DNA from: a virus
Length of the DNA: 64,000 bases
Virus record (IMG/VR): IMGVR_UViG_3300036851_000068
Coordinates: 1-64,000 of that record
Direction: 5' to 3' (one strand)
Positions 15,762-64,000 of the stretch are shown piece after piece. The first letter of the stretch is position 1. Each line of letters begins with the position of its first letter. The notes beneath the pieces are model-generated. The model searched no databases. It saw only the letters and a list, made by a program, of their open reading frames with translations, and was not told the DNA's origin. The position numbers were made by a program, and so were the translations under genes.

Positions 15762-15775
15762 GCCCTGACGAGCCG

Positions 15776-15803
15776 GGGGCAGGGTTGTTGAGCGCCCTGC
15801 CCC
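15776..15803 (+). terminator. Hairpin terminating the replication operon
   Basis: GGGGCAGGG (15776-15784) pairs perfectly with CCCTGCCCC (15795-15803) around a 10-base loop, 15 bases after the stop. No U-tract follows, only GCACGTTT, so efficiency is uncertain. Confidence 0.65.
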
Positions 15804-15805
15804 GC

Positions 15806-15844
15806 ACGTTTGATGGAAGATAAGAAGTGTACGTTTGATGGAAG
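15806..15844 (+). repeat. Direct repeat ACGTTTGATGGAAG, two copies
   Basis: Identical 14-base copies at 15806-15819 and 15831-15844 with a 25-base period, directly upstream of a promoter. The second copy is joined to TGTACG (15828-15833). The spacing suggests a binding site array for an activator. Confidence 0.55.
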
Positions 15845-15863
15845 TTTCAGGGGCAGAAAGTGC

Positions 15864-15891
15864 TTGACGAATGGTGTACAAAGGCTATGAT
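15864..15891 (+). promoter_or_regulatory. Promoter with TGTACA in the spacer
   Basis: TTGACG (15864-15869), 16-base spacer, TATGAT (15886-15891). The palindrome TGTACA is at 15875-15880 within the spacer and AGTACACA follows the -10. It should drive the small-gene island after the replication operon, and a protein bound to TGTACA would block or remodel RNA polymerase binding. Confidence 0.7.
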
Positions 15892-15960
15892 TAGTACACA
15901 GGCCAACGACGATACACTGAAATCCCGGCGGATACCGGGGGCAGCACCAGCAGCGGCCAA

Positions 15961-16089
15961 GTGAACAGCAGGCGGAAGGGACGACGCGGCAAGGGCCGCA
16001 AGCGGTACAGCCCAAAGTGGGCGCTGCCCGCAGGTAACCAAAACCCTGAGAAACCACAGACTTACAATCGGAAGGTACGCGCTGCGTGA
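15961..16089 (+). CDS. Possible small basic protein (42 aa), in structured region
   Basis: GTG-started ORF, 42 residues and very basic (RRKGRRGKGRKRY). No clear Shine-Dalgarno. The DNA is full of inverted repeats (CCCGG/CCGGG at 15924-15939, GGGC/GCCC near 16018-16028), and a perfect 8-base stem 16080-16087/16094-16101 covers the stop codon. It may be a structured RNA instead of a gene. Confidence 0.35.
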   Translation: MNSRRKGRRGKGRKRYSPKWALPAGNQNPEKPQTYNRKVRAA

Positions 16090-16101
16090 TACTACGCAGC
16101 G
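16080..16101 (+). other. RNA hairpin, 8-bp stem
   Basis: CGCTGCGT (16080-16087) and ACGCAGCG (16094-16101) pair perfectly with a 6-base loop. It lies between the possible 42-residue ORF and the Shine-Dalgarno of the next gene. Confidence 0.5.
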
Positions 16102-16131
16102 AGCGCCACACAACGAGAGGAGATGATACCG

Positions 16132-16260
16132 ATGGGCGGATTGCATATCGAATGGAGCAACGTGAATCGAGCGTGGTTTCTGATGTGGTTTGACCAGGTG
16201 CTGCGAGTGTTCAATGAGAAGTCAGATGCTGAGATGGCATTTGAAGATTTGACTGCGTAA
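16132..16260 (+). CDS. Small acidic hypothetical protein (42 aa)
   Basis: ATG 16132 after GAGAGGAGATGATACC. Contains WSNVNRAWFLMWFDQ, rich in tryptophan. Unknown. An in-frame ATG at 16123 is too near the Shine-Dalgarno. Confidence 0.5.
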   Translation: MGGLHIEWSNVNRAWFLMWFDQVLRVFNEKSDAEMAFEDLTA

Positions 16261-16288
16261 GGAAGTCGTTCTGTAGGATAAAGGTACG

Positions 16289-16357
16289 TGCCGGGCTACA
16301 CCCCTTAACCCTGTTAGGGAGGGGCCGTGTACAAAAGGTCGTTGACCCTGCCCGGCG
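16289..16357 (+). ncRNA. Three-way-junction RNA fold in 5' leader
   Basis: An outer stem GCCGGGC (16290-16296) with GCCCGGC (16350-16356), plus a flanking T-G wobble, encloses two hairpins. Hairpin one is 16301-16324: CCCCT/AGGGG, a TAA bulge, then CCCT-GTT-AGGG. Hairpin two is GGTC-GTT-GACC at 16337-16347. TGTACA at 16328-16333 lies in the junction strand. The Shine-Dalgarno of the 16385 gene follows within 20 bases, so this looks like a leader element that could control translation. Seen by eye, not computed. Confidence 0.45.
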
Positions 16358-16384
16358 AACGCTGAGCCTACGGAGGTATTTACA

Positions 16385-16528
16385 ATGGGTACATGGGAGA
16401 TCAAGAGTACAGCGTCAGCCAAGGAGATCAATGCCTTGCGCACTATCGCCGAGGCTGAGGCTTTTGCGCATGGCGAGAATCCTGAAGATGTAAAGGTCGT
16501 GTTCGTTCTGGATGGTATCCCCGCCTGA
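16385..16528 (+). CDS. Small hypothetical protein (47 aa)
   Basis: ATG after ACGGAGGTATTTACA. Short beta/helix protein (GTWEIKST, AKEINALRTIAEAEAF, VKVVFVLDG). It directly follows the branched leader RNA. The TGAATG junction couples it to the next ORF. Confidence 0.55.
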   Translation: MGTWEIKSTASAKEINALRTIAEAEAFAHGENPEDVKVVFVLDGIPA

Positions 16529-16642
16529 ATGAGCCAGTTGATGGCGAAACGTGCGCCGCGCGCGCACGTCGCGGGCAGCACCACATTCGGCCCACACTTG
16601 GCGTTAGCCAGGGTCGGGCACAAACGAGGGTTGGTGACATGA
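16529..16642 (+). CDS. Possible basic microprotein (37 aa)
   Basis: ATG directly follows the previous TGA and its own TGA overlaps the next ATG (ATGA). 37 residues, basic and Ala-rich. It contains a perfect DNA hairpin, so the sequence may be shaped by RNA structure. Weak Shine-Dalgarno. Confidence 0.35.
   Translation: MSQLMAKRAPRAHVAGSTTFGPHLALARVGHKRGLVT
16549..16569 (+). other. RNA hairpin upstream of DUF932 gene
   Basis: ACGTGCGC (16549-16556) pairs with GCGCACGT (16562-16569), loop CGCGC. It lies 70 bases upstream of the DUF932 start and inside the possible 37-residue ORF. Confidence 0.5.
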
Positions 16643-18182: not shown

Positions 18183-18234
18183 TGTACAAAATGCGGGCCG
18201 TGTACACTGTTTGTAAAACCTCGTATGCTATAAT
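18183..18234 (+). promoter_or_regulatory. Promoter with extended -10 and two TGTACA sites
   Basis: TATAAT at 18229-18234 with an upstream TGC (extended -10). The -35 region is poor. TGTACA sites lie at 18183-18188 and 18201-18206, 18 bases apart (nearly two helical turns), covering the -35 region. A bound protein could activate or repress. Predicted start near 18241 puts the Shine-Dalgarno GGAGG almost at the 5' end of the mRNA. It drives the long array of small genes. Confidence 0.65.
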
Positions 18235-19110: not shown

Positions 19111-19364
19111 GGTTCGTGGCAGTTGCAGCGCTATCCTTCCTGGCTGGTGCGGGGCTGTGGGTCGCTAACGCGAGCATAGCCCTGCCTGCGTCTGATGCGC
19201 CACTCACGGCAGACGAGTGGTCGTTGTGGTCGGGAGAGGGCGTGTGGTATGCACACCTTGAGTTCTGTGAGTACGAGAACGAGAAGGACTGGCGAGTGTG
19301 CATGCGGCGCAACGGGCTTGAGCCGAACCCGACACCGTGGAACGTTGTGCCGACTTCGTTCTAA
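19104..19364 (+). CDS. Exported or anchored small protein (86 aa)
   Basis: GTG start, hydrophobic N-terminal helix (residues 2-26, FVAVAALSFLAGAGLWVANASIALPA) like a signal peptide, then an acidic domain with two cysteines (EFCEYEN, RVCMRRN). Possible cell-envelope protein, role unknown. Confidence 0.55.
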   Translation: MVRFVAVAALSFLAGAGLWVANASIALPASDAPLTADEWSLWSGEGVWYAHLEFCEYENEKDWRVCMRRNGLEPNPTPWNVVPTSF

Positions 19365-19375
19365 GGAGCGTGACT

Positions 19376-19705
19376 ATGGACCCGATGAGTCTGGAAGCCT
19401 GGCGCAAGGTGCAGCCAACGTTGCGCACAAAAGCACAGAGGCTGTTTGCGTACATTGAGGAACACGGGCCGCATACGTGTGATGAACTGGAGTTTCTGCT
19501 TACCATGCCTCATCAGACTGTGAGCGCAATGCTTAACATCATGATGGAGGCCGGGCTGGTGTTCAAGACGGGCAGCACACGTTTGACCCGGTACAGGCGC
19601 AACGCGAACATATGGGAACTGGAGTCGAGGCGTAAGGAAGGACGCTGGTTGAGTGATGGTGGTCAGGCGGCGTACCTAGCATTTCAAAAGGAGCGTGACG
19701 CATGA
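19376..19705 (+). CDS. Winged-helix DNA-binding protein (MarR/ArsR-like)
   Basis: 109 residues from ATG 19376 (AAGGAGCG upstream). AQRLFAYIEEHGPHTCDELEFLLTMPHQTVSAMLNIMMEAGLVF has the spacing of a winged helix-turn-helix with recognition helix near PHQTVSAMLNIM. Candidate transcription regulator for the phage promoters. Confidence 0.65.
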   Translation: MDPMSLEAWRKVQPTLRTKAQRLFAYIEEHGPHTCDELEFLLTMPHQTVSAMLNIMMEAGLVFKTGSTRLTRYRRNANIWELESRRKEGRWLSDGGQAAYLAFQKERDA

Positions 19706-28556: not shown

Positions 28557-28648
28557 TAGAAGGGCAGGGCCTGGGCCTGGAGCGATTATGCCGGATGGGC
28601 TATCGCCTTTGGAGCCTGGGCCTTGTCATTTGTGGGAGGTGGGATGCA

Positions 28649-28903
28649 ATGGACAGTCAGGGGATTAGGGTGCGTGATGGTGTGCGGCTTGACCTGAGCC
28701 GGGTCTGCTACTGGGACAAGGATGGCGAGTGGTTCCTGTACCTGCCGGGTTGTGGGATAGGGAGCCTGCGGGAGCATGAGGTGGTGGAGCATGAGGACGG
28801 GACCATTACAGTGCAGCCGTCTATCCTCATGACAGGGCACAACCAGGGGCAGGAGACTACTGTACACGGCTACCTTGAGCGAGGGGTGTGGCGAGGGGCC
28901 TGA
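28649..28903 (+). CDS. DUF6527-like small protein (84 aa)
   Basis: ATG after GGGAGGTGGGATGCA. GEWFLYLPGCGIGSLREH...VQPSI...HGYLERGVWRGA follows the DUF6527 outline (Trp strand, Pro-Ser-Ile, His-Gly-Tyr/Phe-x-x-x-Gly-Val-Trp). Zinc ligands usual in that family are partly missing. A TGTACA site is at 28861 inside it. Last gene before the gene-free region. Confidence 0.45.
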   Translation: MDSQGIRVRDGVRLDLSRVCYWDKDGEWFLYLPGCGIGSLREHEVVEHEDGTITVQPSILMTGHNQGQETTVHGYLERGVWRGA

Positions 28904-29033
28904 CCCTGGGCTGTGTGGATAAAGGGGCAGAACTGTACACAGGGGGTTCATTAGCGGGCCTTGGAAGGGCATAATAGACCCTTGTAAGGGGGCACAACAG
29001 GGGGTGCAAAGTGTGGTACACTTGTACACAGGT

Positions 29034-29071
29034 GGGCCTGGGACTCGGGGTAAAACCCTCGTCCCACGCCC
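29034..29071 (+). other. Long imperfect hairpin in the gene-free region
   Basis: TGGGAC (29039-29044) pairs with GTCCCA (29061-29066); GGGT (29048-29051) with ACCC (29055-29058) around AAA; outer GGG/CCC adds 3 bp. AACCCTCGT in the stem (29054-29062) is repeated at 29123-29131. No T-run follows. It could end the small-gene transcript. Confidence 0.5.
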
Positions 29072-29709
29072 TGGTATCAACGCCTGATGCGAGGCAGGTA
29101 TAGGACCTGGGCGCATAGAGAGAACCCTCGTGGATACAGGCGCTTAGGCATCCCGAGTCCAAGAGATCAGGAAGCGCCGCGAGTAGAGCAAAGTGTACAC
29201 AGGCAGGGGTTGTACACAGGGGGGGAGGCAATGGGGGGCAGCGGGGGAGCGGTACTCCGCCCAGCCCCTCACCCCACGCGCCGCACCCATGTACCCCAGT
29301 GTCCATAGGGACACCAAGGCCCAGCACCCACAGCATGCAGCACAGGGCACAGCAGGGCCGTGGTGAGTACGCAGGGGCAGGACCCGATACCAGCAGGGGT
29401 ACCACAGTGGCGGGCCTTGGAGCCGCGAGCCTCTATGGACGTGGAGCAGGACCGTCCCCCCGTTCAGAACTTGCTGCGGGGCGGGCGGGCAGGACGATGC
29501 CGCGTTCTCGTAGCGTAGCAAGAGGGGTGTGTACACTTTTGAGCCAGTGTCGTGCAAAGGGTGTGTACACTACTTGCAGGGTGTGTACAGTTTTCGGAGA
29601 GGTATCCGGGATGTTAGGCCACGGTCCAGCAGCAGGGGCCTGAGCCGCGAGCGCAGTTGAGAGGAACCGGCCCGGCAAGCCTGCCGGTGAAACCGAACCT
29701 CTCGGGGAC

Positions 29710-29739
29710 TTGCACAAAATGTACATGGATGTGTACAAT
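29710..29739 (+). promoter_or_regulatory. Terminase promoter with TGTACA in spacer and over -10
   Basis: TTGCAC (29710-29715), 18-base spacer, TACAAT (29734-29739). TGTACA at 29720-29725 is in the spacer and the copy at 29732-29737 overlaps the -10; a third, TGTACACAGG, is at 29750. The terS start is 33 bases downstream of the -10. Confidence 0.6.
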
Positions 29740-29771
29740 AGATGGTAGGTGTACACAGGGGGTTGTAGCAG

Positions 29772-30368
29772 ATGGCAGACGATCAGAGCAAGCCAAAACC
29801 GCCGGTGCAAAAGAGGGTGCCGCGCGTATGGGATATGAAGCCGGACGAGCCTGCCAAGGCGTATTCCGCCTTCATGCTCTATCGGAGCCTCGGTGTCGGG
29901 CGTAAGTTAGCCGATGCCGCAGAGCGCCTTCACGTCCGGGTCTATGTGCTGGAGAAGTTGAGCCAAAGGTTCTCGTGGGCGTTTCGCGCAGATCAGTGGG
30001 ATGCATGGGCCTTGCGGCAGCGGAGTCACAGCGCTGAGAAGCGTGTGCTGCGCGAAGCCGAGTTGGAAGCACGTACGATCAGCGACCTGGTGCGCATGAC
30101 ACGCATTCTCACAAAGCGCACGATGCTCAACGTCATTCGTACAAAAGCAGCATCGTTGACTCCGCAGGGCGTAGCAACCCTGGCTGACATCGTTGTGAAG
30201 TTGAGCCGGTTGCAACGCGGCGAGCCTACTGACCGGCGCGAGAACATTGCGCGCAGCGCACGCGAGCGCGTGCGAGAGAAGTTGGACACTGTGGCAAAGA
30301 CTCTCGCAGACCAGATCAAAACAAAGGAGAAGCCGGGCGATGCGCCGCCGTCGAAAGAAGTCCACTAG
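29772..30368 (+). CDS. Terminase small subunit-like protein
   Basis: 198 residues directly upstream of the large terminase, which is the usual place. DNA-binding-like N-terminal segment (SAFMLYRSLGVGRKLADAAERL...VYVLEKLSQRFSW resembles a helix-turn-helix in small terminases), long central helix, charged C-terminus. It would bind the packaging site and load the motor. The TGTACA array just upstream is a candidate recognition region. ATG start after GGGGGTTGTAGCAG. Confidence 0.7.
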   Translation: MADDQSKPKPPVQKRVPRVWDMKPDEPAKAYSAFMLYRSLGVGRKLADAAERLHVRVYVLEKLSQRFSWAFRADQWDAWALRQRSHSAEKRVLREAELEARTISDLVRMTRILTKRTMLNVIRTKAASLTPQGVATLADIVVKLSRLQRGEPTDRRENIARSARERVREKLDTVAKTLADQIKTKEKPGDAPPSKEVH

Positions 30369-30507
30369 GTTCGCTCGTGTATGCTGCCCTCTGTGCCGCG
30401 AGCGCGCAGAGCGCCTGTCGGCTATCAAGGCCGTGAAGATGTACGCCTGGCGCTGCACAAAATGCGGCGCAAAGTTCTGGACGGAAATGGACAAGGACGA
30501 TGAGTAG
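30340..30507 (+). CDS. Zinc-ribbon microprotein between terminase genes
   Basis: 55 residues. CPLC and CTKCGAKFW form a classic ribbon with a basic N-terminus (RRRRKKSTRF). It overlaps terS by 29 bases and terL by 8. A similar ribbon between terminase genes could act in packaging, but this is inference. Confidence 0.5.
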   Translation: MRRRRKKSTRFARVCCPLCRERAERLSAIKAVKMYAWRCTKCGAKFWTEMDKDDE

Positions 30508-31876
30508 CGAAGATGTAGGCCGAATTGACCCGCGCAACCTTAGCATGGCCGAGAAGTTAGCGCTTCTCAGCGAGGAAGCGCGCACTGCCATGCTTGCGCA
30601 GTTCAGCGATGAGGAATGGGATGCGCTCGAATACGACTGGAATTTCTGGAGCCGCCCCTCGCAGCAAGCACCGTTAGGTAACTGGTTAGGCTGGCTCATC
30701 ATGACTGGTCGAGGCTGGGGCAAAAACCGTACAGCCGCTGAGTTTTGTGTCGGAGAGATCAGAGCCAATCGCAGCAGTCGCAGCGGATTCATTGCACGTA
30801 CCGGGCCGGACATGCGCGACGTGGTTATCGAAGGCGAATCAGGCATCATGCGTATCTGCCCGCCAGACTTCCGGCCACTGTGGGAACCATCGAAGCGCCG
30901 CTTGTCATGGCCGAATGGCGCGATCACACACACGTACAGCGCCGATGAGCCAGACGTGCTGCGCGGGCCACAGCACGATTTGATATGGGGCGACGAGTTG
31001 GCTGCATGGAAGTTTCGTGAAGCGTGGACAAATGCAATGTTCGGTCTGCGCATGGGATTGAATCCGCGTTGGATTGCAACCACTACACCAAAGGTTACTC
31101 CTCTTATGAAGTCGTTGCTTCTTGAAGCCAAGCCGCGCGAGCAGTACGAAAACATGAGCGTTGGTGACCAGCGCGGCGCAATCATATTGAGCGGCGGCAG
31201 CACGTATGAGAATCTTGCGAACCTCGCACCCGCGTTCATCAAGGAAGTTATCCGGCGCGCTGAAGGTACGCGCATTGCAAAGCAGGAAATCTACGGAAAG
31301 ATGTTGGAGGACAGTCCCGACGCGCTGTGGAAGCGTCAGCAGTTGGAAGACGACCGAGTTATCAAAGCGCCACCACTGCGCAATGTTGTTGTCGCCGTGG
31401 ACCCGGCTGCATCTGCTTCCGAAGATAGCAGCGAAACCGGTATCATGGTGTGTGGCGTTGACGAAGCGGGACACGGCTATCTCATAGAGGATTCAACGAT
31501 CAAGGGCAAGCCGGAACAGTGGGGAGCGGCTGCGGTCGCAGCGTTCCACAAGCACCAAGCGAATAGAATCATTGCTGAAACAAACAACGGCGGCGACATG
31601 GTTATCAGCGTAATCATGGCGGTTGACAAGATGGTTCCAACGAAGAAGATCACAGCGAGCCGGGCCAAGTACACTCGCGCGGAACCAGTAGCGGCATTGT
31701 ACGCACAGCACATCATGCATCATGTCGGCTACTACGCTGAACTTGAAGACCAGTTGTGTTTGTGGGTGCCCGGCGAAGAATCACCTGACCGGCTTGATGC
31801 GCTCGTGTGGGCGTTCAGCGATTTGCTTGTGGACTTGAAGGCGAAAGTATATGGGCGCGATTTCGGAATTGCGTAG
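30500..31876 (+). CDS. terL: Terminase large subunit
   Basis: Packaging ATPase and nuclease, 458 residues. Walker A-like GRGWGKNR (70-77), Walker B LIWGDE with Asp165-Glu166, coupling motif ATTTP near 193-197, RNase H-type nuclease with Asp301 (VAVDPA), Glu360 (IIAETNNGGD) and SPDRLDALVWA with Asp430/Asp433. The residue after the Walker A Lys75 is Asn76, where Thr or Ser is normal. It resembles Terminase_6-type motors of siphoviruses. Overlaps the ribbon gene. Confidence 0.93.
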   Translation: MSSEDVGRIDPRNLSMAEKLALLSEEARTAMLAQFSDEEWDALEYDWNFWSRPSQQAPLGNWLGWLIMTGRGWGKNRTAAEFCVGEIRANRSSRSGFIARTGPDMRDVVIEGESGIMRICPPDFRPLWEPSKRRLSWPNGAITHTYSADEPDVLRGPQHDLIWGDELAAWKFREAWTNAMFGLRMGLNPRWIATTTPKVTPLMKSLLLEAKPREQYENMSVGDQRGAIILSGGSTYENLANLAPAFIKEVIRRAEGTRIAKQEIYGKMLEDSPDALWKRQQLEDDRVIKAPPLRNVVVAVDPAASASEDSSETGIMVCGVDEAGHGYLIEDSTIKGKPEQWGAAAVAAFHKHQANRIIAETNNGGDMVISVIMAVDKMVPTKKITASRAKYTRAEPVAALYAQHIMHHVGYYAELEDQLCLWVPGEESPDRLDALVWAFSDLLVDLKAKVYGRDFGIA

Positions 31877-31896
31877 GGTTTCAACGGCGGGGGGTG

Positions 31897-32039
31897 TGTA
31901 CAAAAAGTGTACACCGTACACACCAAAAGAAAGGACACTCTCGCGCCGCCCAATGTAGTGCAGTATAGCACACTGTCAAGTGATATTGCATCACTCTTTC
32001 GGAAACAGTACAGTATTGGTGACTGTCGGAAAGTGTACA
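31897..32039. promoter_or_regulatory. TGTACA cluster upstream of the portal gene
   Basis: TGTACA at 31897, 31908 and 32034, with variants CGTACACACC at 31915 and AGTACAG at 32007. The gap 31877-32133 has no gene. The first two sites are 11 bases apart, about one helical turn. It is the second densest cluster after the pre-terminase array. Confidence 0.6.
31986..32014 (+). promoter_or_regulatory. Candidate late promoter 1
   Basis: TTGCAT (31986-31991), 17-base spacer, TACAGT (32009-32014). AGTACAG, a one-base variant of the TGTACA motif, overlaps the -10. Confidence 0.45.
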
Positions 32040-32059
32040 CGGGAACAAACGTTTGCCTG

Positions 32060-32097
32060 TGTACGTTTTGAAAACGTACATAGATAGAAGATAAAGT
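32060..32097 (+). promoter_or_regulatory. 21-base palindrome over a candidate -35 (late promoter 2)
   Basis: Arms TGTACGTTTT and AAAACGTACA surround one G (32060-32080). TTGAAA at 32068-32073 lies in it and is followed after 18 bases by TAAAGT (32092-32097). TAGACTGTAAACAG (32100-32113) is shared, with one change, by the capsid promoter at 40369. The portal start is 36 bases downstream. Confidence 0.6.
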
Positions 32098-32133
32098 GCT
32101 AGACTGTAAACAGCCTGGGCAGGAGGGGTTTCG

Positions 32134-35100
32134 TTGGCACGGAAGCGCTCGCTAGAGTCAGAACTGAATCAAGCCTCGAAGAACATCGGTAGGCGTGCGT
32201 CTGTCGGCAAGTCGGGACAGGGCGCTTACAGTCTTGTGCCCGTGCAGTCTTCACAGCATTTCCCTCTGAGATCACAACCTCGACCGTCGCAGCAGAACCT
32301 GTTGCGAGCGTATGCGGAGTCTCCGTGGCTGCACATCAAGATTGCACGGCTGGCAGCGTCATGGGCCAACGTACCATTCAAGGTTGTGGCTGAAGATGCG
32401 AAGGGCAAGGAGACGGACCTTCCTCGCGCGCACCCCCTGCACCTGCTGATGCGAAAACCGAACCCGGCGATGAGTGGCTGGGACTTGCGTTTCTTGACCG
32501 AGTTGTACATTCGCTCTGTTGGGGAATGCTACTGGCGCGTGCGAGGTAGTTCACTCGGGCGCGAACTGTGGGTGTATCCGGCCAACTGGGTTACGCGCGT
32601 GTTCGACCGGAATCGCCAGGTGTCAGAGTATCAGGTTGCGGAGACGCAGCCCGGTGGCGTGAATATCATTCGTGTTCCAGCGAGTCAGATGATTTGGTTG
32701 CGATCACCAGACCCGCTTGAGCCGTACAGCGCCGGACTTGGCGACGCGCTATCACTTGCCAGCGAGATTGATACATTTGAGTTGGCGTCTGAGTCTGACC
32801 GGCGTTTTTTCGAGAACGATGCATCACCACCTGGTGCGCTCGTAGTGCCGGGACGTTTGACACAGGACGAGAACGACCGGATGCGCGACGACTTTCAGCG
32901 CAAGCAGGGCGGGCCGGAGAATCAGGGCAAGCCGATGCTGCTGTGGGGCGGCATGGATTGGAAATCGTTCCGTGCGGGCCGTAAGGAAATGGATTTCATT
33001 GATGGGCAACGGTATCTGCGCGACGTGATTATCGCGGGCGTGCACAAGCACGTTCTTGGAATCACGGACGATGTAAACTTCGCGGCGGCTAAGGCGGCTG
33101 ACTACCAGGTTAGCAAGTGGGAGTTAGCGCCGCGCGTTCCGTGGTGGGAAGATAACACGGACAAAATTGCGATCATGTATGACGAGCGCGCGCATGTGCG
33201 ATGGGATAACCCTGTGCCGCAGGACGAGCAGATCGAATTGCAGAAGGCAAACGAAGGATTGCTGCGCGGCGCGATAACACGAAACGAGTGGCGCGTTATC
33301 AACAAGATGGAACCTCTGCCTGACGACATCGGCCATGTGTTCATCATTCCGCCGGGCCTTGTCGTTGTACCTGCGGATGAAGCGGCGCAGATGCCTGTGG
33401 TGTCACCACAGATTCCACCGGAGGCGAGGCCGGAGGGCGGCACGCCTGAAAATAGGCCACCGGCAGAAGACGACGACAAAGAACGTGGGAACCCTTTATC
33501 CGTTAAGCACACACCCGGAGGCCATGAGCACGATCAGTCTTCACACGGAGGCGAAGGCGGGGGCGGCGGCGATGAGGGCGACGGTGGCAAAGAGTCTAGC
33601 ACCGGGAAACTGAGCGGCAACAAGCCAATTGTACACGATGGCGGAAACGACGCTAACGTTAACGAATGGAAACCCGATGTGTGGAGTGCCGGAGATGTGT
33701 TGCTGGATGATAATGCGACCATTTTTTACCACAAGAGCGGAACTGTTCTTGTTGGAGGTCCAGGGTCGCAGCATTCTGAAGTTATCTACATAGCGGGTAA
33801 GAAGCCTTCGTATGAAGATGAAGGTTCACACGTTATGTGGACAAGTAGGCGCGGTAATGAAAAGAATACGTTGTATTTTGTTATGACAACGGAGCGAAAC
33901 GAATGGGATGCTACATTTGCTTTCCTAGAGGGGCTTGCTGAACGTGGCGTAAATGATTCGGTGCAGGCAATAATCGGTGGAGATATAAAACCAGTTAGAG
34001 AATGGTTGAAGCAGGGAAAGGCCGCTGCGTTGAAGGCATGGCGCAAGTATAAGGCACCAGTATTCGACCCACTTCATCCTAGTTGGCGGCGCGTGTTGGA
34101 GCAAGTTAGTGGTGCAGTGAAGACAGACGACACAATGGACGTGCTGCGACCTATCTACGAAGCCGTGATGGAATCCCGTATCTCAGATGTGAAAGAAGAA
34201 CTGGGCATCAACGTGGGCCTGAGCCTGACGGACCCGGACCTTCTTGCATATCTAAGAAGCGCAGCGGGCGAGCGCATTACGCGAGTGGACGAGAACACAC
34301 GCGATCAGATTCGTGAGGCGCTTGAGGAAGGCATTCGTGCCGGTGACAACTTGCGCGGGCTGGAAGAAAGACTTAACACGGTGTTTGACATTGCCAAGGA
34401 GCACAGGGCCGAAAGAATCGCGCGCACGGAAGTCATTGATGCGTCGAACGCGACAGCCTATGCATCGTACCAGCGTAGCGGTGTGGTTGAGGGCGTGGAG
34501 TGGCTGCTTGCGCCTGACTATGATGGCGAGGAAGACGATTTCGAATGTGAGGCTATCGAGGAAGCCGGGCCGGTGCGTGTGGGTGAGGAGTTTGTTCCTG
34601 GCATTGCTTGGCCGCCAGGTCACCCGAATTGTAGGTGCGCCATTGCTCCCGTGGTAGCGGGAGATGAACTTGCTGAGATCGTGGATGCGGAAGCCGTGGT
34701 CGAGGACCGCATGGGCGCGCGCGGGATGGTTGAGGACCAGAAGCGTGAAGCGGTTGAGAAGGAAGGATTGCCAGTGTTACCCATAACGTCTGAGGAGAAA
34801 CAGCGAATAATAAAGCAGTGGAACGAGGAGATTGTTCCCCAGTTCAATCAGTCGCGCAAGGATTTGCGTGCGGCAAGGGAGATACAAGGCGGCAGTATCT
34901 CACAATCTGTTGCTGATGAAAACCGTGCGATGGAGAAGTTTTTCGGTAAGTGGGCCGAGGTAACGTTTGAAGATATGAAGCGCTGGTTGCCGGAGAGTGT
35001 GCAGACTCCTTTGTACAAGGGATTTAAGATTACCAGTAAAAAGGGAGCCTTTTACGAAGAAGGATTCATACACATAAATCGGGAACTGGCGCTTAGCAAG

Positions 35101-35814
35101 ATGAGTCAGTTTAACGAGGTTGTTAATGGCCTTGGTCAAGTGCAGGATAATATTGACCTTTGGCACATGCAGACTATATTCCACGAAGTGAGTCATGCGA
35201 TGTTTGACTGGTCCGCTAACATGGTGCGGTTCTACAACGAGGGCGGAAAGTCATTGATAGAGGCCGTCAACGATATAATGGGTACCCAGCACACTAGAAC
35301 ATGGCTAGAAACCGTGGGCATAAAGGTGCAGCCGGAAGCAATAGAGTCATTCTTGTACGGAAAGGATTCATCGTATTCGGGCTACGTTCAGAACTGGGAT
35401 AGATGGTTCCAGGGCTTCAACGTGAACATTCGCGACGAGCGCGTAGCGTCTCGAATATATGCCTCGATGGTCGTGGACGATGCGAACGTTCCTCAGTTGA
35501 CGAGAATTGAGGGCGCAAGCGGCGGGGCACCGTTACTTCGACAGTTCAACATGGACCGCGTGTTCGATTCGATTGAGCCTGAGATTCGTTCTTCGATGAG
35601 CGATGAAATTCAGGCGGCATGGGATAAGACGATTGGCGGCGGGCAGACGCGGGCGATTCGTGAAGAAGCAAAGCGTTCATGGACTAGTGCGTCGAAGAAC
35701 TGGCTTGGTGAGCAAGATGTGGTTGGTAACGATCAGATAGATGCATGGACGAAGCAAGTCAAGGATGCCGTGCAGAATCGTTTTGATAAACTGCGTGCCG
35801 AGGGGAGCATCTAA
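32134..35814 (+). CDS. Portal-MuF-HExxH metallopeptidase fusion
   Basis: 1,226 residues from TTG (AGGAGGGG upstream). Residues 1 to about 435 are a HK97-type portal (AHPLHLLMRKPNPAMSGWD, NDASPPGALVVPG). A linker HTPGGHEHDQSSHGG starts at 459, followed by a glycine-rich stretch and an unknown domain (495-640). MuF/SPP1 gp7 head-morphogenesis core is at about 690-840 (ERIARTEVIDASNATAY; HPNCRC at 830-835). The C-terminal part holds HEVSH (His1017, Glu1018, His1021), a zincin motif. Portal and MuF are usually separate; a MuF-linked enzyme suggests a protein injected or used in assembly. Confidence 0.9.
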   Translation: MARKRSLESELNQASKNIGRRASVGKSGQGAYSLVPVQSSQHFPLRSQPRPSQQNLLRAYAESPWLHIKIARLAASWANVPFKVVAEDAKGKETDLPRAHPLHLLMRKPNPAMSGWDLRFLTELYIRSVGECYWRVRGSSLGRELWVYPANWVTRVFDRNRQVSEYQVAETQPGGVNIIRVPASQMIWLRSPDPLEPYSAGLGDALSLASEIDTFELASESDRRFFENDASPPGALVVPGRLTQDENDRMRDDFQRKQGGPENQGKPMLLWGGMDWKSFRAGRKEMDFIDGQRYLRDVIIAGVHKHVLGITDDVNFAAAKAADYQVSKWELAPRVPWWEDNTDKIAIMYDERAHVRWDNPVPQDEQIELQKANEGLLRGAITRNEWRVINKMEPLPDDIGHVFIIPPGLVVVPADEAAQMPVVSPQIPPEARPEGGTPENRPPAEDDDKERGNPLSVKHTPGGHEHDQSSHGGEGGGGGDEGDGGKESSTGKLSGNKPIVHDGGNDANVNEWKPDVWSAGDVLLDDNATIFYHKSGTVLVGGPGSQHSEVIYIAGKKPSYEDEGSHVMWTSRRGNEKNTLYFVMTTERNEWDATFAFLEGLAERGVNDSVQAIIGGDIKPVREWLKQGKAAALKAWRKYKAPVFDPLHPSWRRVLEQVSGAVKTDDTMDVLRPIYEAVMESRISDVKEELGINVGLSLTDPDLLAYLRSAAGERITRVDENTRDQIREALEEGIRAGDNLRGLEERLNTVFDIAKEHRAERIARTEVIDASNATAYASYQRSGVVEGVEWLLAPDYDGEEDDFECEAIEEAGPVRVGEEFVPGIAWPPGHPNCRCAIAPVVAGDELAEIVDAEAVVEDRMGARGMVEDQKREAVEKEGLPVLPITSEEKQRIIKQWNEEIVPQFNQSRKDLRAAREIQGGSISQSVADENRAMEKFFGKWAEVTFEDMKRWLPESVQTPLYKGFKITSKKGAFYEEGFIHINRELALSKMSQFNEVVNGLGQVQDNIDLWHMQTIFHEVSHAMFDWSANMVRFYNEGGKSLIEAVNDIMGTQHTRTWLETVGIKVQPEAIESFLYGKDSSYSGYVQNWDRWFQGFNVNIRDERVASRIYASMVVDDANVPQLTRIEGASGGAPLLRQFNMDRVFDSIEPEIRSSMSDEIQAAWDKTIGGGQTRAIREEAKRSWTSASKNWLGEQDVVGNDQIDAWTKQVKDAVQNRFDKLRAEGSI

Positions 35815-40343: not shown

Positions 40344-40379
40344 TTGACGACCAGGTGTACTTTGGCGGTAGACTGTACA
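40344..40379 (+). promoter_or_regulatory. Capsid operon promoter with TGTACA elements
   Basis: TTGACG (40344-40349), 19-base spacer to TAGACT (40369-40374), TGTACT in the spacer (40356-40361) and TGTACACAG (40374-40382) overlapping the -10 end. The layout copies the 15864 promoter, including TTGACGA. The long spacer makes an activator likely. Confidence 0.55.
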
Positions 40380-54345: not shown

Positions 54346-54364
54346 TTGCGAGGGAGTGTGTCGC

Positions 54365-55327
54365 ATGAGAGTTCTCATCACTGGGGCCGCAGGTTTCATT
54401 GGGTCACACGCGGCGCGGTACTTTGCACGGAAGTATCCGGCCTGGGATTTGCTGACGCTGGACCGGCTTAACTACGCGGCTGCACTGAACCGGATGGAGG
54501 AAGTGCGCGGGCGCATTAAGGTGGTTCTACATGACCTGCGAGCGCCGCTTACAGACTACGTGGTAGCGCAATTGGGACCGCTGGATTACATCCTGCACTT
54601 CGCGGCTGAGACGCATGTGGATAGGTCAATGGTGGACCCACATCCGTTCATAGAGTCGAACATCCTGGGCACGTATAATCTGCTGGAGTATGCGAGATTG
54701 CATCAGCCAGCGCTCAAGATGTTCTTCATGGTGAGTACGGACGAATCGTATGGCGCTGCGTCGCCGGGCGTAGATCATAACGAGTCGTCACCACATAGGC
54801 CAAGTAACCCATACAGCGCGAGCAAGGCGGCGGCTGAGGACCTGGCTTATGCCTGGGAGCACAGCATGGGCGTGCCAACGATAATCACGAATACAATGAA
54901 CAACATTGGTGAGATGCAGCACCCTGAGAAGTTTGTACCAAAGATCATTAGAAGCCTCTATACACAGCAGATCATTCCAGTGCACGGTTCGCCGGACGAG
55001 CCTGGGAGCCGGAAGTATTTGTATGCTGGAGATCATGCTGATGCCATTGACTTCCTCATGAAAGACGGGAGGCGCGGCGGGCGCTATAACGTTGTTGGTG
55101 CTGAGGAGATCAGTAACCTGGAGATGGTGCGGCGACTGGAGAAGGTGACGGGACGCGAGGCAAAGATCAAGTTCGTGGACTTTCACAGCACTAGGCCGGG
55201 GCACGACCGGCGCTACAGCCTGGATGGTAGCAAGATGGCTGCGATGGGTTGGACACCTCCATCCCCGATTGATGATGTGCTGCGCGTCATGTGCGGGTTC
55301 TATGTCGCGCGAGAGGATTGGCGATGA
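54365..55327 (+). CDS. dTDP-glucose 4,6-dehydratase-like SDR
   Basis: 320 residues from ATG 54365 (GGGAGTGTGTCGC). Extended SDR: GAAGFIG (7-13), catalytic Thr125-Asp126-Glu127 in STDESYG, Tyr150-x3-Lys154 in YSASK, as in RmlB-type dehydratases that make 4-keto-6-deoxy sugars. First gene of a five-enzyme sugar cassette between tail genes. Sugar nucleotide could be dTDP- or UDP-linked. Confidence 0.85.
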   Translation: MRVLITGAAGFIGSHAARYFARKYPAWDLLTLDRLNYAAALNRMEEVRGRIKVVLHDLRAPLTDYVVAQLGPLDYILHFAAETHVDRSMVDPHPFIESNILGTYNLLEYARLHQPALKMFFMVSTDESYGAASPGVDHNESSPHRPSNPYSASKAAAEDLAYAWEHSMGVPTIITNTMNNIGEMQHPEKFVPKIIRSLYTQQIIPVHGSPDEPGSRKYLYAGDHADAIDFLMKDGRRGGRYNVVGAEEISNLEMVRRLEKVTGREAKIKFVDFHSTRPGHDRRYSLDGSKMAAMGWTPPSPIDDVLRVMCGFYVAREDWR

Positions 55328-55569
55328 GGCTCGTTGGGTTTCTGTCGGTGATGGTGTTGCTGTTTGCATCGTTCAGCAGGCCACCGGACTTCTATTGGCA
55401 CGGGTGCCACTTTTTCTACATGGGCGGCGAGGGTTATCCCCTGCCTGTTCCCATGAAGGGGTTGCGAGGATACATGATTGGCCTGGAGTCGGGAGAGACA
55501 CTATCAGGTAACGTTCTGCTAGATGAGTATGGTCGTGTTGTGGAACATGAAGTGAGGTGTGAGAGATGA
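55324..55569 (+). CDS. Small secreted protein (81 aa)
   Basis: ATGA overlap. Signal-peptide-like start (LVGFLSVMVLLFASFS), short mature domain with two Cys (GCHFF, VRCER). Located inside the sugar cassette, overlaps the next gene. Unknown. Confidence 0.5.
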   Translation: MRLVGFLSVMVLLFASFSRPPDFYWHGCHFFYMGGEGYPLPVPMKGLRGYMIGLESGETLSGNVLLDEYGRVVEHEVRCER

Positions 55570-56318
55570 GGCTTCTACTGGGAGCGGCGACGCTGGCGAA
55601 TCCAGCGCTGACGAATGACTGGACGGTTCGTGCGCTGAAACAGAAGGGCGTAGAGCCGCGCGATATTGTGTTGGTTTGCAACAGTGACCGGGTGAAGGCG
55701 GCATGTCAGGCATGGGAGAAGCAGGGCGTGACGGTGCACTACCCGGAGGCCAACATGGGGACATGCGCGTCGTGGAATTACATATTGGAGAAGGCATGGG
55801 AGCGGCGGTATGAAGGCGCGCTAATTTTCAATGATGATGTGCTGTTCAACGACGACCTTGTGATGGAAAAGATGCTGGAGCGTGTGACACAGTTCGACCG
55901 ATTCCTGTACATGGTGCAAAACCTGGGCTTCTCGGGGTTTTGCATTACGCGCACGGTGTGGGATTTGGTTGGGCGCTTCGATGAGGGCTTTTGGCCTGCT
56001 TACTTCGAAGACAACGACTATCACTGGCGAGCAAAGGCGGCGGGCATTCCGTGGGTTGATGTGAATATGGACGTGGCGCACCTGGGTAGTGCATCGTTGA
56101 AGAAGTGGAAAGAGTGGGAGGACTGGAACGCCAAGATCGTGTTCGTTATAAATAGGATGCGATACGTGGAGAAGTGGGGCGGGCATCCGTCCGGGGAACG
56201 CTTCACGGAGGCGTGGGGCGGGAAGCCGGAGCGTGCATGGAACACAAAAGAGTGGTTGCGGACGCATGGGCATAAACCACCGTGGCCGGACCCATACTTT
56301 GAGAGGGTGAAGACATGA
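55566..56318 (+). CDS. Family 2-like glycosyltransferase
   Basis: 250 residues. GT-A fold: NMGTCASWNYILEKAW (donor-binding), FNDDVLF (DxD-like metal motif), GRFDEGFWPAYFEDNDYHWRAKAAG (acceptor and catalytic loop of GT2), then a basic end. It should transfer a sugar onto a cell or virion acceptor. ATGA overlaps with both neighbours. Confidence 0.8.
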   Translation: MRLLLGAATLANPALTNDWTVRALKQKGVEPRDIVLVCNSDRVKAACQAWEKQGVTVHYPEANMGTCASWNYILEKAWERRYEGALIFNDDVLFNDDLVMEKMLERVTQFDRFLYMVQNLGFSGFCITRTVWDLVGRFDEGFWPAYFEDNDYHWRAKAAGIPWVDVNMDVAHLGSASLKKWKEWEDWNAKIVFVINRMRYVEKWGGHPSGERFTEAWGGKPERAWNTKEWLRTHGHKPPWPDPYFERVKT

Positions 56319-56854
56319 TATTCGCCAACGAAGTTGCAAGCGCGGTGACAGAGAACGAGTGCAAGGCGCTTGCGAAGGCCGCTGAAGGCAAGGTGGTGCT
56401 TGAGGTTGGCTCGCACCTGGGGCGCTCCACGATTGCGTTGGCATCTACCGCCAAGATAGTGCATGCGGTGGACTGGCACAGGGGCGATGCGCATGCCGGG
56501 TTCGGATGGACTCTTGATAAGTTTGTGGCTAATCTCAACATGTATGGCGTGCTGGATAAGGTAGTGATTCATGTGGGCAGGTTCGAGGATGTGTATTTGG
56601 CAATGAGTCGTGCCTTCTCGTTTGCGTTCCTTGATTCGTTTCATGATAGGGGCACCGTGGATATGCACATGAGGATGATTGATTCGTTGTTGGTGCCGCG
56701 CGGCGTTATTGCGATGCACGATTACATGCAGCCGACGTTCATGAAGGATGTACACAACGGAGCCGGGGATTGGCTGCGGTGGTCGCAGCGTGCATGGGAC
56801 GGGCCTGTAATGGTGGACTCAACGGCATTCTGGACGGAGAAGCCAGCATTATGA
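56315..56854 (+). CDS. SAM-dependent methyltransferase
   Basis: 179 residues. Rossmann SAM motif VVLEVGSHLGRSTIAL near 29-44, AVDWHRGD and AFLDSFHD (Methyltransf_24-like). Such enzymes cap or methylate sugars or oligosaccharides. Lies between the two GT2-type genes. Confidence 0.8.
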   Translation: MIFANEVASAVTENECKALAKAAEGKVVLEVGSHLGRSTIALASTAKIVHAVDWHRGDAHAGFGWTLDKFVANLNMYGVLDKVVIHVGRFEDVYLAMSRAFSFAFLDSFHDRGTVDMHMRMIDSLLVPRGVIAMHDYMQPTFMKDVHNGAGDWLRWSQRAWDGPVMVDSTAFWTEKPAL

Positions 56855-57669
56855 TTACTTGTGTAATAGCGCTTAACAGAGCGGACATACTGGCGCGAAC
56901 GTTGCCACAGTTGCTGTCGGTGACGAGTTCGCCGGTGATAGTGTTGGATAACGGTAGTCAGCCACCATTGGAGTTTGAAGGTGTGGCCGTTCATAGAGCG
57001 CAAGAGAATGCGGGGAACTACAAATCTTTTGAGGTGGGCCTGGGTATTGCAGGTATATGGGGCGCTGAGGTGATTGGCTTCATGCACAGCGATGTATTTG
57101 TGTACGATGATGGATGGGATAAGCGCGTGCAGAGTTTGTTCGATGCAGACCCAAAGTTAGGTCTAGTGGGGTTTGTAGCGTCGAATGAGATCGAGAGTCA
57201 TGGCGGGCGCGGGATGGGTACAGTTCTGAACTTTCAGGGACGGCAAGAATGTGGCGGCGGGTGTAGTGTTCACGGGCGTTGTAGTGCGGGATTTGAGCCT
57301 GCGGCGCAGGTAGATGGTTGTGTGATGATATTCAGGCGCGCAGCACTGGCACAAGTGGGCTTCAAAGACTTTGCGCCACATCACTTTTACGACAGGCTAA
57401 TGTCGTGTCAGATGCTGGAGGCGGGATGGCGCGTTGGCTATGTGGGCGTCGCCTGCGATCACCTTGGCGGGCGCACAACAATGTTTGAGCAGGCGTATCA
57501 TGATGTAGCAAGGCGCTGGTGTGAGGAGCGAGGAATTTCAAGAGCGGACGGTAATTGGGACTATGCGCTGTATCGTGAAGCCGAGAAGCGTTTCCTGGAT
57601 GAATACTCAGTGCGCAAGCGGTTCATTCCGTTGAAGGTTAGCAAAAACTGGGAGGTGCACAAGCGATGA
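56851..57669 (+). CDS. Family 2 glycosyltransferase
   Basis: 272 residues from ATG 56851. MITCVIALNRADILARTLPQLLS, IVLDNGSQPP, NAGNYKSFEVGLGIAGIWGAEVIGFMHSDV (DxD-like) and a later DGCVMIFRR, ACDHLGGRTT. A Cys-rich insert (ECGGGCSVHGRC) is unusual. Overlaps neighbours by 4 bases each. Confidence 0.82.
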   Translation: MITCVIALNRADILARTLPQLLSVTSSPVIVLDNGSQPPLEFEGVAVHRAQENAGNYKSFEVGLGIAGIWGAEVIGFMHSDVFVYDDGWDKRVQSLFDADPKLGLVGFVASNEIESHGGRGMGTVLNFQGRQECGGGCSVHGRCSAGFEPAAQVDGCVMIFRRAALAQVGFKDFAPHHFYDRLMSCQMLEAGWRVGYVGVACDHLGGRTTMFEQAYHDVARRWCEERGISRADGNWDYALYREAEKRFLDEYSVRKRFIPLKVSKNWEVHKR

Positions 57670-58913
57670 AAATTCTTGGCATGAGTGACCCGCTGAGCAG
57701 CCCAACTGGGTTCGGGCGTGTGGCGCGCGAATTGTTTATACGGCTTGGCACGATGTACGAGGACAAATTTCAACTGGGTTACTTGTCGCGCGGATGGGTT
57801 GGTACACGCAAGTTTCCTAACGTTCAGACGTATAGTTCGAGCCTGACTGATGCGGTCAACAGCGGTGCGTTCCCGATTGCCGCGCAGGACTTCGAACCGC
57901 CATTCATTTTGTGGACGCTGACAGACCCGTGGCAGACGGGTTGGATTAGTCACATGGAATCGAATACATACTCTACGCAGGCATCGGCTGAATGGTTGAA
58001 GGCTAATCGCGAGAAGATGTTGTGGATTGGGCATTACCCGGTTGACGGTGAGGGTATTAACGGTCCCCCGTTCTGGTACGATGCATTCATGAATGGGCCG
58101 GATGTTACGGTGTTCATGAGTGAATACGGACACACGCTGATGAAGGACCATCTTTCAACGCAGACAAGGTTCATTTCACATGCTGTGGATACAAACCTGT
58201 TTCATCCGGTGGCACCCGAGGCACGCGAAGCGGCAAAGGCGAACGCGGGGCTAGGCGGGCGCTTCGTGGTAATTAGTGTGATGGCGAATCGCTATCGCAA
58301 GTATTGGCCGGAGTTGCTGTATGGCTTCAAGATGGCTTTGCGCAAAAACCCGGACCTGCATCTATTGGCTATATGTGGGGACCCGATGGGCAACGCTGAG
58401 GATACATGGTCACTGGTCGAGATAGCGAAGACGCTGGGCTTGATGGAGAAGGGCAAGGAGCGCGTGACGTTTATTAGTAGCGTGCCGGAGCATGTTCTGG
58501 CACGCATGTACATGTTGAGCGATATGGCGGCGCTGGTGAGCGCGGGCGAGGGCTTTGGCCTTCCACAGTTGGAAGCGCATGCTTGTGGTTTGCCGTGCGT
58601 TGTGGGGCGGTACAGTGCAAGTGAGGAACTGATTGTGAGCGCAGGCGAGGGATTGAGTCCTGCGGGATGGACGTATCATGGGAACAATGTTATCAAGAGA
58701 CCTGTGTATTCTCCTGCCGATATTGCTGACCGCATTCTGTTCTGGTCACGCAGTTCGGCTAGAATGGGAGAGGTGGCGCGCCTGGGTCTGGAGCAGGCCC
58801 TGGAACGATCATGGGAGAAGGTTTTGCCGCAGTGGGTAGCGTTGTTCGAGGAACAGTGGGCTGTGCTGATGTCGAAGCATAAGGAGCCTGAGCCAGTTGC
58901 CGGACCAGCATAA
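57666..58913 (+). CDS. Family 4-type glycosyltransferase
   Basis: 415 residues. GT-B fold: N-terminal SSPTGFGRVARELFIRLG, C-terminal ISVMANRYRKYWPELLYGFKMA and SAGEGFGLPQLEAHACGLPCVVGRYSA (the EX7E motif). Retaining transferase using a nucleotide sugar. Last enzyme of the cassette, overlapping the next structural gene by 17 bases. Confidence 0.88.
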   Translation: MKILGMSDPLSSPTGFGRVARELFIRLGTMYEDKFQLGYLSRGWVGTRKFPNVQTYSSSLTDAVNSGAFPIAAQDFEPPFILWTLTDPWQTGWISHMESNTYSTQASAEWLKANREKMLWIGHYPVDGEGINGPPFWYDAFMNGPDVTVFMSEYGHTLMKDHLSTQTRFISHAVDTNLFHPVAPEAREAAKANAGLGGRFVVISVMANRYRKYWPELLYGFKMALRKNPDLHLLAICGDPMGNAEDTWSLVEIAKTLGLMEKGKERVTFISSVPEHVLARMYMLSDMAALVSAGEGFGLPQLEAHACGLPCVVGRYSASEELIVSAGEGLSPAGWTYHGNNVIKRPVYSPADIADRILFWSRSSARMGEVARLGLEQALERSWEKVLPQWVALFEEQWAVLMSKHKEPEPVAGPA

Positions 58914-60210: not shown

Positions 60211-61932
60211 ATGGCGATTAACGAGGTAAAGGGAATCCGGTGGCGCGTCTCGCATGACCTGGGCGGCGGGCTGTCTGCACGTACGTTCGACGTAGCCTAT
60301 ACCAAAGTGGGCGCGCTGAACGTGTGGGACTCCGGCCAGTACGATCAGATCGAGTTGTACCGTGGCGAGGCAGCGCCGGACCTTATCCGAATCAAGGCTG
60401 AGTGGGATGGCGATGAGCGCGACGTAATCCTGGGCGTTGTTGACCGAAGCGGACGCGAGCAGACCGACGAGGGCGTGGCGGCGCATGTGATTGGACGCGA
60501 CAAGGCGGCGCTGGTGCTTGACCGTTTTCCGGCTGCGGCGTTCACGCTTCAGGGAAACGATGTTGTGGATAACGTTTTGGTGCCGAATCTGACATATCGC
60601 GAGGCTGTGGAAGAAGTTGCAGATCAGGCCGGGTTGACTGTTTCGTGGAACGTTGGGACGGATGATTACAACCTGGGTCGAAGCATTGCGGTAACGACGG
60701 ACCAGTCTTTCGGTAAGATCATTGCGCAATTGATGGAGCCGTGGCGCTTTGGCGAGAAGTACAGTCATGATGCCTGGGTTAGCGATGATGGTCTGGTGCT
60801 GCATGTGGTACGGCGCAACCTGTTGGGGTCTGTCAACGTTGACTTCAATCGCATGACAGTGAACAGGTACGAGAAGCGCGTGCTACCGGACATCAATGAT
60901 GTGCGCGTTGAGGGTCAGTCGTATGAGACTGTGGTGGCGAGCGGGACGTTGGGCTTGTGTGACCCGATATTCCCGGAGACGTTTGTTAGGAGTTTTGGCG
61001 GGGGCCTTCCATCACAAAACTATACTGAGACTACGAAGGTGTACAAAAATACTGTGTGTCAGGTGACGAAGGTTGAGATCACGCAGCAGTATGCGGACAA
61101 CCTGAAGACAGTTGTTAAGACGGTATTGTTCACCTATTGGTCTGCGCCGGGCACACCAAAGGATGGAAAGGTAAAGACACAGACGTATGAGCATCGGGAA
61201 ACGAACAGTCAAACAGGCGCGGTGAATCCGCTGAAGACTGATGGCACGCAGGGCGCTTCGGTAAACGTGACGTTCTCATATTCGAATGTGCTGCGTGAGT
61301 CTATGACCAAGGAGTTTGATTACTACAGCGATAATGGTGACACGAAGACGACCGATGAGAGTCATGAAAAGGCTGACAGGCCGGTGGGTCCTACTGGGTT
61401 GGACCCGACTGCGGGCGGGTTGGTGGCGGATTACAGGCCGTCACATCGGACGTTCAAACAGTTCACGTATGCGCGCGGCGTGGGCCAGACGTATCGCATT
61501 GTGGCTGTTCAGAATCACAGGTTGATTAACGAGCGCATTGAGCCAACAAACAACGAGGTGCAGGTGGAGATTCCACCGTACACTGTTAGCGAGGCTACTT
61601 TGGCGGCTGTGAATCAGGGGTTTAAGCAGGAGACGGTAACGTTGTCGGCGGGCGGCGAGGATGCGAAGCGTGTGGAACAGTCGGACCTGTTGGGAGATCA
61701 AACGTCTATTGACCTGATTCGTACGCGGTTGCTGGAGGAGCAAGACCTGAAGATCGTGGAGGCATCGGTGAACATGCTGCCAGACCACCTTGTGAAGCCG
61801 GGATGGACGTTGGTTATAGAGGGAGCACCGTCCTGGTTTGACATTAGCAGCCTGTACATTCTGTCGTCGGATATTGACGCTGATGAGCATGGTGCGATTC
61901 AGATGTTGCGCTGCATAGGGTTCCTATCATGA
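60211..61932 (+). CDS. Tail hub / baseplate protein (573 aa)
   Basis: Directly after the previous stop. N-terminal beta domain (RWRVSHDLGGGLSARTFDVAY), DQIELYRGEAAPDLIRIKAEWDGDERDVILGVVDRSGREQTDEGVAAHVIGRDKAALVLDRFP resembles gpD/late-control type hub proteins, then long beta-rich modules ending in LRCIGFL. Likely the siphoviral Tal/tip. Confidence 0.7.
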   Translation: MAINEVKGIRWRVSHDLGGGLSARTFDVAYTKVGALNVWDSGQYDQIELYRGEAAPDLIRIKAEWDGDERDVILGVVDRSGREQTDEGVAAHVIGRDKAALVLDRFPAAAFTLQGNDVVDNVLVPNLTYREAVEEVADQAGLTVSWNVGTDDYNLGRSIAVTTDQSFGKIIAQLMEPWRFGEKYSHDAWVSDDGLVLHVVRRNLLGSVNVDFNRMTVNRYEKRVLPDINDVRVEGQSYETVVASGTLGLCDPIFPETFVRSFGGGLPSQNYTETTKVYKNTVCQVTKVEITQQYADNLKTVVKTVLFTYWSAPGTPKDGKVKTQTYEHRETNSQTGAVNPLKTDGTQGASVNVTFSYSNVLRESMTKEFDYYSDNGDTKTTDESHEKADRPVGPTGLDPTAGGLVADYRPSHRTFKQFTYARGVGQTYRIVAVQNHRLINERIEPTNNEVQVEIPPYTVSEATLAAVNQGFKQETVTLSAGGEDAKRVEQSDLLGDQTSIDLIRTRLLEEQDLKIVEASVNMLPDHLVKPGWTLVIEGAPSWFDISSLYILSSDIDADEHGAIQMLRCIGFLS

Positions 61933-63503: not shown

Positions 63504-64000
63504 ATGAAGTTCAAGTATCGTGTGCTGCATTTGGTAAAGCGTACTGTATTCTGGCTTGGTGTCGCGTGGTTGTCATTGTGGCTCATTAGGTCCCCGAACT
63601 GGGAGATCATCAAGATTGCTCTGCAAGTTGCCATGCAGGTTCTCATCGTTGTTATCTTCGTGGGCGGTCAGATTCTCATGTTCGTCTATTTCATGGCGCG
63701 TACCCGCGATGAGTTGATTCTGCCTGGCAGTCCTATGGCGACGACTCTGGATGATTACTGGGGCCAGCCGAGGCTGAAGGAACTTGTGCAGCAGTGGGTA
63801 ATTCTACTGAAGAATCCGAAGGCGTATCGCATGCTAGGAGGGCTGAAGCCGAAAGGCGCGCTGCTGGAAGGTCCTCCGGGGTTCGGCAAGTCATTCCTGG
63901 CGAAGTGTATCGCTGGCAGTGCGGGCATTCCATTCATTAGCATGGATGCGGCCAGCCTGCGCAGCGTGTGGATGGGCATTGGTAGCGTAAAAATCATGAT
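63504..64000 (+). CDS. Membrane-anchored AAA+ ATPase, FtsH-like (partial)
   Basis: ATG 63504; the gene runs off the right edge after 165 codons. Two transmembrane segments (about 14-28 and 36-64), then the FtsH-type entry DYWGQPRLKELVQQWVILLKNP, KPKGALLEGPPGFGKS (Walker A 123-130, with Ser for Thr), FLAKCIAGSAGIPFISMDAAS. Whether the M41 protease (HExxH) follows cannot be seen. It is behind its own promoter, after the tail operon, and may act with the ClpP-like protease or in the membrane. Confidence 0.85.
   Translation, partial: MKFKYRVLHLVKRTVFWLGVAWLSLWLIRSPNWEIIKIALQVAMQVLIVVIFVGGQILMFVYFMARTRDELILPGSPMATTLDDYWGQPRLKELVQQWVILLKNPKAYRMLGGLKPKGALLEGPPGFGKSFLAKCIAGSAGIPFISMDAASLRSVWMGIGSVKIM

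Follow-up and report, generated by a model that had tools for sequence, protein, structure and literature searches.

Paired TGTACA sites in the non-coding DNA of an uncultivated bacterial virus, densest before its terminase genes, as candidate operators of one regulator

The TGTACA array before the terminase genes

Why does a virus carry ten copies of one short palindrome directly in front of its terminase genes? We analyzed this locus in a 64,000-nt stretch of DNA (the window) from an IMG/VR record of 65,821 bp, which represents an uncultivated virus of bacteria. All apparent genes of the record are on the plus strand, and they include a DnaE polymerase, a recombinase, a primase, and a full structural module. 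The original prediction had left three readings of the array open: operators of a phage regulator, origin iterons, or a terminase recognition site. The locus has the following parts.

28904..29771, no strand: gap of 868 bp holding the ten-site array, non-coding by codon scores
28934..28943, plus strand: TGTACACAGG site, just upstream of promoter-like TTCATT-17-CATAAT (28947-28975)
29023..29032, plus strand: TGTACACAGG site, with GGTACAC 8 bp upstream
29194..29220, plus strand: two TGTACACAGG sites 17 bp apart
29525..29594, minus strand: three GGGTGTGTACA sites (29530, 29564, 29584), in the orientation opposite to the left group
29732..29755, no strand: dyad TGTGTACA-N12-TGTACACAGG with 18-bp spacing (29732/29750)
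29772..30368, plus strand: small terminase subunit (TerS) gene (PHROG 6299, E 1.5e-17)
30500..31876, plus strand: large terminase subunit (TerL) gene (PHROG 979, E 9e-26)

The ten exact TGTACA copies originally reported between 28934 and 29755 are all correctly placed, at 28934, 29023, 29194, 29211, 29530, 29564, 29584, 29720, 29732, and 29750. Successive spacings are 89, 171, 17, 319, 34, 20, 136, 12, and 18 bp, and both orientations are present. An eleventh copy, at 28861, is within the ORF preceding the gap. The whole window contains 45 TGTACA versus 12.0 +/- 3.3 in dinucleotide shuffles. Within the array, the 10 copies compare with 0.38 expected from the coding rate (P about 1e-11), a figure close to the chance expectation of about 0.2 given before. 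The longer form TGTACACAGG occurs five times, the number first counted, and always within the array; rather than being equally common in coding DNA, it is absent from it and from the rest of the window.

The array occupies non-coding DNA just before the terminase genes, as proposed, with TerS starting at 29772 and TerL at 30500. All ORFs tested within the gap had codon log-odds of -0.35 to -0.67, compared with about +0.1 to +0.2 in most genes compared; the ORF directly upstream of the gap (28595-28903) scored -0.06. The 3' end of the gap is the TerS start codon, and the right half of the 29732/29750 dyad ends 16 bp upstream of the TerS ATG. The gap at 15762-16638 nominally exceeds it in length (877 bp), but short ORFs with ribosome-binding sites are present there, and thus 28904-29771 keeps its description as the largest gene-free region.

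Dispersed pairs and predicted promoters

The sites are dispersed over the phage DNA, and nowhere else are they as dense as in the ten-site array. The remaining strictly non-coding DNA (3.6 kb, array left out) contains 9 TGTACA versus 1.59 expected (P 4e-5) and 8 GTGTACA/TGTACAC versus 0.79 expected (P 2e-6), figures that depend on the choice of boundaries, since we picked those of genes and short ORFs by hand from ORF lists. Several of these sites form a second cluster.

31896..32098, no strand: second cluster, in the gap between TerL and the portal gene (sites 31897, 31908, 31915, 32007, 32034, 32060, 32075)

This cluster includes a promoter-like sequence, TTGAAA-18-TAAAGT, and part of it coincides with the window's 150-bp stretch of lowest GC. 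Downstream of its single sites at 32060 and 32075 comes the portal gene.

For spacing, we counted as near-exact any site with the GTAC core intact and at most one mismatch. Five pairs of near-exact non-coding sites are exactly 18 bp apart (15875/15893, 18183/18201, 29732/29750, 31897/31915, and 40356/40374), and every other spacing is represented by at most one pair. When sites were placed at random within their own regions, at least five pairs at any one spacing from 7 to 40 bp arose in 0.1% of 50,000 trials (P = 0.001). Before short ORFs were masked, there were six 18-bp pairs (P 2e-4); the pair at 16388/16406 was omitted from the strict count, as it is at the start of a short ORF. Coding DNA has no 18-bp pairs, and the array pair at 29194/29211 is spaced by 17 bp. 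The left member of the pairs tends to TGTGTACA and the right member to TGTACACA, so that a pair amounts to the dyad TGTGTACA-N12-TGTACACA. This arrangement changes one part of the original prediction, which had taken the motif to be directional. The extension to TGTACACAGG stands, but its direction is better read as that of a half-dyad: TGTACACAGG is the right half, and TGTGTACA, with other flanks, is the left half.

Promoters were scored with hand-written E. coli sigma-70 matrices, which makes this a modest test. Four of the resulting sites, and one gene downstream of the second, are listed here.

15864..15898, plus strand: best promoter-like site of the intergenic DNA, TTGACG-16-TATGAT
18183..18234, plus strand: 18-bp pair (18183/18201) just upstream of an extended -10, TGCTATAAT
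19337..19705, plus strand: gene for a winged-helix protein, MarR-like (PF12802 E 1.1e-5, under Pfam's curated cut-off)
29710..29739, plus strand: predicted TerS promoter, TTGCAC-18-TACAAT
40344..40379, plus strand: promoter-like TTGACG-19-TAGACT with an 18-bp pair (40356/40374)

At 15864, one core is in the spacer and the 18-bp pair (15875/15893) brackets the -10. The pair at 18183..18234 precedes an operon that includes the winged-helix gene. The predicted TerS promoter has one TGTACA in the -35/-10 spacer (29720) and another over the -10 (29732), 12 bp apart, with a third core (29750) following 18 bp after 29732. The site at 40344..40379 precedes the next structural gene (ORF 40421).

Promoter-like sites 32068, 18207, 40344, 29710, and 28947 are all among the top nine on the plus strand, and all have TGTACA sites. 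On that strand, 7 of the 12 best promoter-like sites carry a site versus a background of 29%; the count on the minus strand, which has no genes, is 3 of 12. One plus-strand candidate (63628) is inside the gene that starts at 63504, and leaving it out gives 7 of 11 (binomial P about 0.02, calculated by hand). Top-ranked promoter-like sequences underlie four of the five 18-bp pairs, and the genes after pair-bearing promoters include the terminase genes and ORF 40421. Several array sites, 29194 and 29211 among them, have no promoter-like sequence nearby.

The recurrence of the sites in non-coding DNA, their 18-bp pairing, and their overlap with promoters make operators of a phage regulator the best supported of the three original readings. 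The sites are probably paired operators through which one regulator acts on packaging, capsid, and some early promoters, with the array as their densest part. From the layout we infer binding, cooperativity, repression, and timing. A homodimeric DNA-binding protein would recognize the palindromic core (G)TGTACA(C), and two dimers would occupy a pair of cores cooperatively, at a spacing of 18 bp or, at the terminase promoter, of 12 bp. The bound protein would cover the -35/-10 spacer or the -10 and thereby repress the promoter. Promoters repressed in this way would be those of the terminase genes, the portal gene, ORF 40421, and the 15.9-kb and 18.2-kb operons, and their shared repression would allow packaging and capsid genes to be switched on jointly. 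The extra sites in the 868-bp leader could provide a higher local concentration of the protein or permit looping. Most metagenome phages have no known regulator, and a dispersed, precisely spaced dyad points to likely switch points and a testable set of promoters.

Candidate binders and likeness to antitoxin operators

The winged-helix protein is a candidate regulator only, proposed from its domain match; its predicted structure was of too low quality for use. The operator geometry suggests another type of binder. YefM and Axe repress their own promoters via two TGTACA cores 12 bp apart, and in the axe-txe promoter the spacer contains one core, while the second partly overlaps the -10 (PMC7730913, PMC4803016). 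The layout of the TerS promoter matches the YefM-YoeB and Axe-Txe systems in core, 12-bp spacing, and spacer/-10 placement. A TGTACA core overlapping the promoter, a trait of the Phd/YefM type, is present at 29710-29739, 15864-15898, and 40344-40379. The virus differs in that several predicted phage promoters carry such sites, 18-bp pairs are commoner than 12-bp pairs, and no antitoxin gene was found. A spacing of exactly 12 bp occurs only at 29720/29732, and 11 bp at 31897/31908, while the other pairs are at 18 bp.

We found no Phd/YefM-family gene next to the operators: PF02604 had no match in the whole record (best E of 1.2 with a local HMM), nor did the ribbon-helix-helix family PF01402. 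Thus, the set would act like antitoxin operators without qualifying as such, and either a diverged phage protein or one from the host could be the binder. As a tentative extension, the packaging and capsid promoters may form a phage regulon on antitoxin-type operators, controlled by a diverged protein of the Phd/YefM kind or by a host toxin-antitoxin complex. If the binder is of the antitoxin type, the DNA-binding module of antitoxins would serve to switch phage genes, or phage promoters would be directly reading the host's toxin-antitoxin system. To our knowledge, there is no phage case of switch sites with an antitoxin-like binding pattern, and literature searches for phage operators with a TGTACA core yielded none.

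A scan of public DNA for the 12+18 layout returned 63 genome and 35 viral stretches. Many of these are coding repeats or precede genes for tyrosine integrases that have a PF13356 N-domain, and the geometry is therefore not specific to YefM. One viral stretch (L263) has four cores spaced 12-18-12 bp directly upstream of yefM (PF02604 E 5e-23). In an Anaerolineae contig (L189:380-565), a solo Phd/YefM-domain gene follows a 150-bp stretch with eight or nine GTGTACAC sites, and its product matches PF02604 just under the curated cut-off (E 2.8e-6). Only 3 of 199 genomes of its class have a match to this solo Phd-like protein, and around the gene in the other two there is no TGTACA. Separately, TGTACA triplets at 12/18 bp are directly upstream of tyrosine integrases in L172, L252, and many genome loci among L185-L247.

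We also compared the sites with the stoperators of Cluster A mycobacteriophages, which are likewise many short sites over phage non-coding DNA and thought to be linked to a regulator. Stoperators are asymmetric and are bound by an immunity repressor that is monomeric (PMC9283540), whereas the sites described here are palindromic and paired. That class, which belongs to temperate phages, was rejected, given the palindromic core and the lack of any match in the whole record to the HTH_3 repressor (PF01381) or integrase (PF00589) domains.

Replication, decoy, packaging, and RNA leader alternatives

The main rival to paired operators is a replication origin, in which an initiator would bind the TGTACA sites as iterons or DnaA-like boxes and the AT-rich gap at 31950-32100 would melt. 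Arrays with a TGTACA-like core are present in two other phage groups (L264:830-1070 in one, L010:100-480 and L012:5970-6340 in the other) beside AT-rich DNA and replication-like genes, helicase/primase-like and nuclease-like by sequence reading rather than by family search. These arrays are probably iteron-type origins, judging from that setting. In the virus studied here, a perfect TTATCCACA DnaA box on the minus strand (28914-28922) precedes the first site by 12 bp. The window has its lowest-GC 150-bp stretch at 31952, next to the second cluster and 2.2 kb from the array. The array resembles iteron or DnaA-box origins as a cluster of short repeats with one perfect box beside it. However, 12 of the 14 GTGTACA matches in the L264 record are in one 250-bp cluster, whereas the sites here extend over at least five regions and are on promoters. 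The array is GC-rich (61%); its spacing is irregular and its orientation mixed, in contrast to regular same-orientation repeats. In addition, GC skew shows no sign change, the array has no initiator gene next to it, and position five of TGTNCACA is invariably A among the array sites but variable in DnaA boxes. Origin iterons are a weaker reading than operators, and an origin remains unlikely yet worth weighing because of the TGTACA arrays by replication-like genes in L264 and L010/L012. Within the window, TTATCCACA recurs only once, at 60564-60572 in coding sequence of a gene.

Rather less likely again is a decoy or sensor function, in which a host Phd/YefM-type antitoxin or toxin-antitoxin complex binds the sites, and phage promoters respond or the phage titrates the protein. 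The YefM-like core and spacing at the terminase promoter would fit, as would the finding of no such gene in the phage record, but a diverged phage protein accounts for the same facts more simply.

The third original reading, a cos or pac site recognized by TerS, is disfavored and appears very improbable. The array adjoins terS, and in lambda, cosB abuts Nu1. The lambda cosB R-sites are similarly repeated directly before terS, but in this virus such sites are also present well away from the terminase genes: matching dyads are found at 15.9, 18.2, 31.9, and 40.4 kb, which places sites 14 kb upstream and 11 kb downstream. Moreover, TGTACA upstream of TerL is not enriched (1.14-fold) in 107 distant relatives. 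Together, these two results make a role in packaging alone unlikely. We likewise rejected the idea of palindrome clusters near terminases in general, as TGTACA is not special family-wide. Close relatives of the virus were not found: IMG/VR scans with TerL, DnaE, or portal as single proteins returned no relatives, and scans with a TerL profile and with segments gave best relatives of ~51% identity or less with few other genes in common.

The only other TGTACA cluster found near a terminase is in an unrelated terminase-bearing phage contig (L129), where a 140-bp stretch immediately preceding a small ORF has five TGTACA, an arrangement that speaks for operators. By eye, the ORF product looks like a ribbon-helix-helix protein; it had no Pfam or PHROGs match, and its structure model was of low confidence. 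Repeated TTCACTGAGTGAAC palindromes are present near this cluster (L129:1100-1850).

Least probable of all is a structured non-coding RNA leader with incidental sites, which nested inverted repeats (29300-29440), a closing helix (29038-29163), and a fold z of about -2 in two segments would suggest, but a z of -2 is ordinary in GC-rich DNA, a third segment has z -0.2, there is no Rfam match at gathering scores, and the sites elsewhere would be left without explanation.

Other features of the record were noted in passing. In the gap, segments 29036-29166 and 29296-29444 are enclosed by inverted repeats of 8-10 bp, and GCCGCGAG occurs at 29176, 29422, and 29644. In a 1226-aa protein (32134-35814), a head-morphogenesis (MuF-like) region comes after a portal region. 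By eye, the tail region (54356-58913) includes sugar-epimerase-like and glycosyltransferase-like genes, and a 564-aa FtsH-like AAA+ protease with an HEAGH motif is encoded from 63504 to the end of the window at 64000, continuing in the record to 65198 (L281:105-1799).
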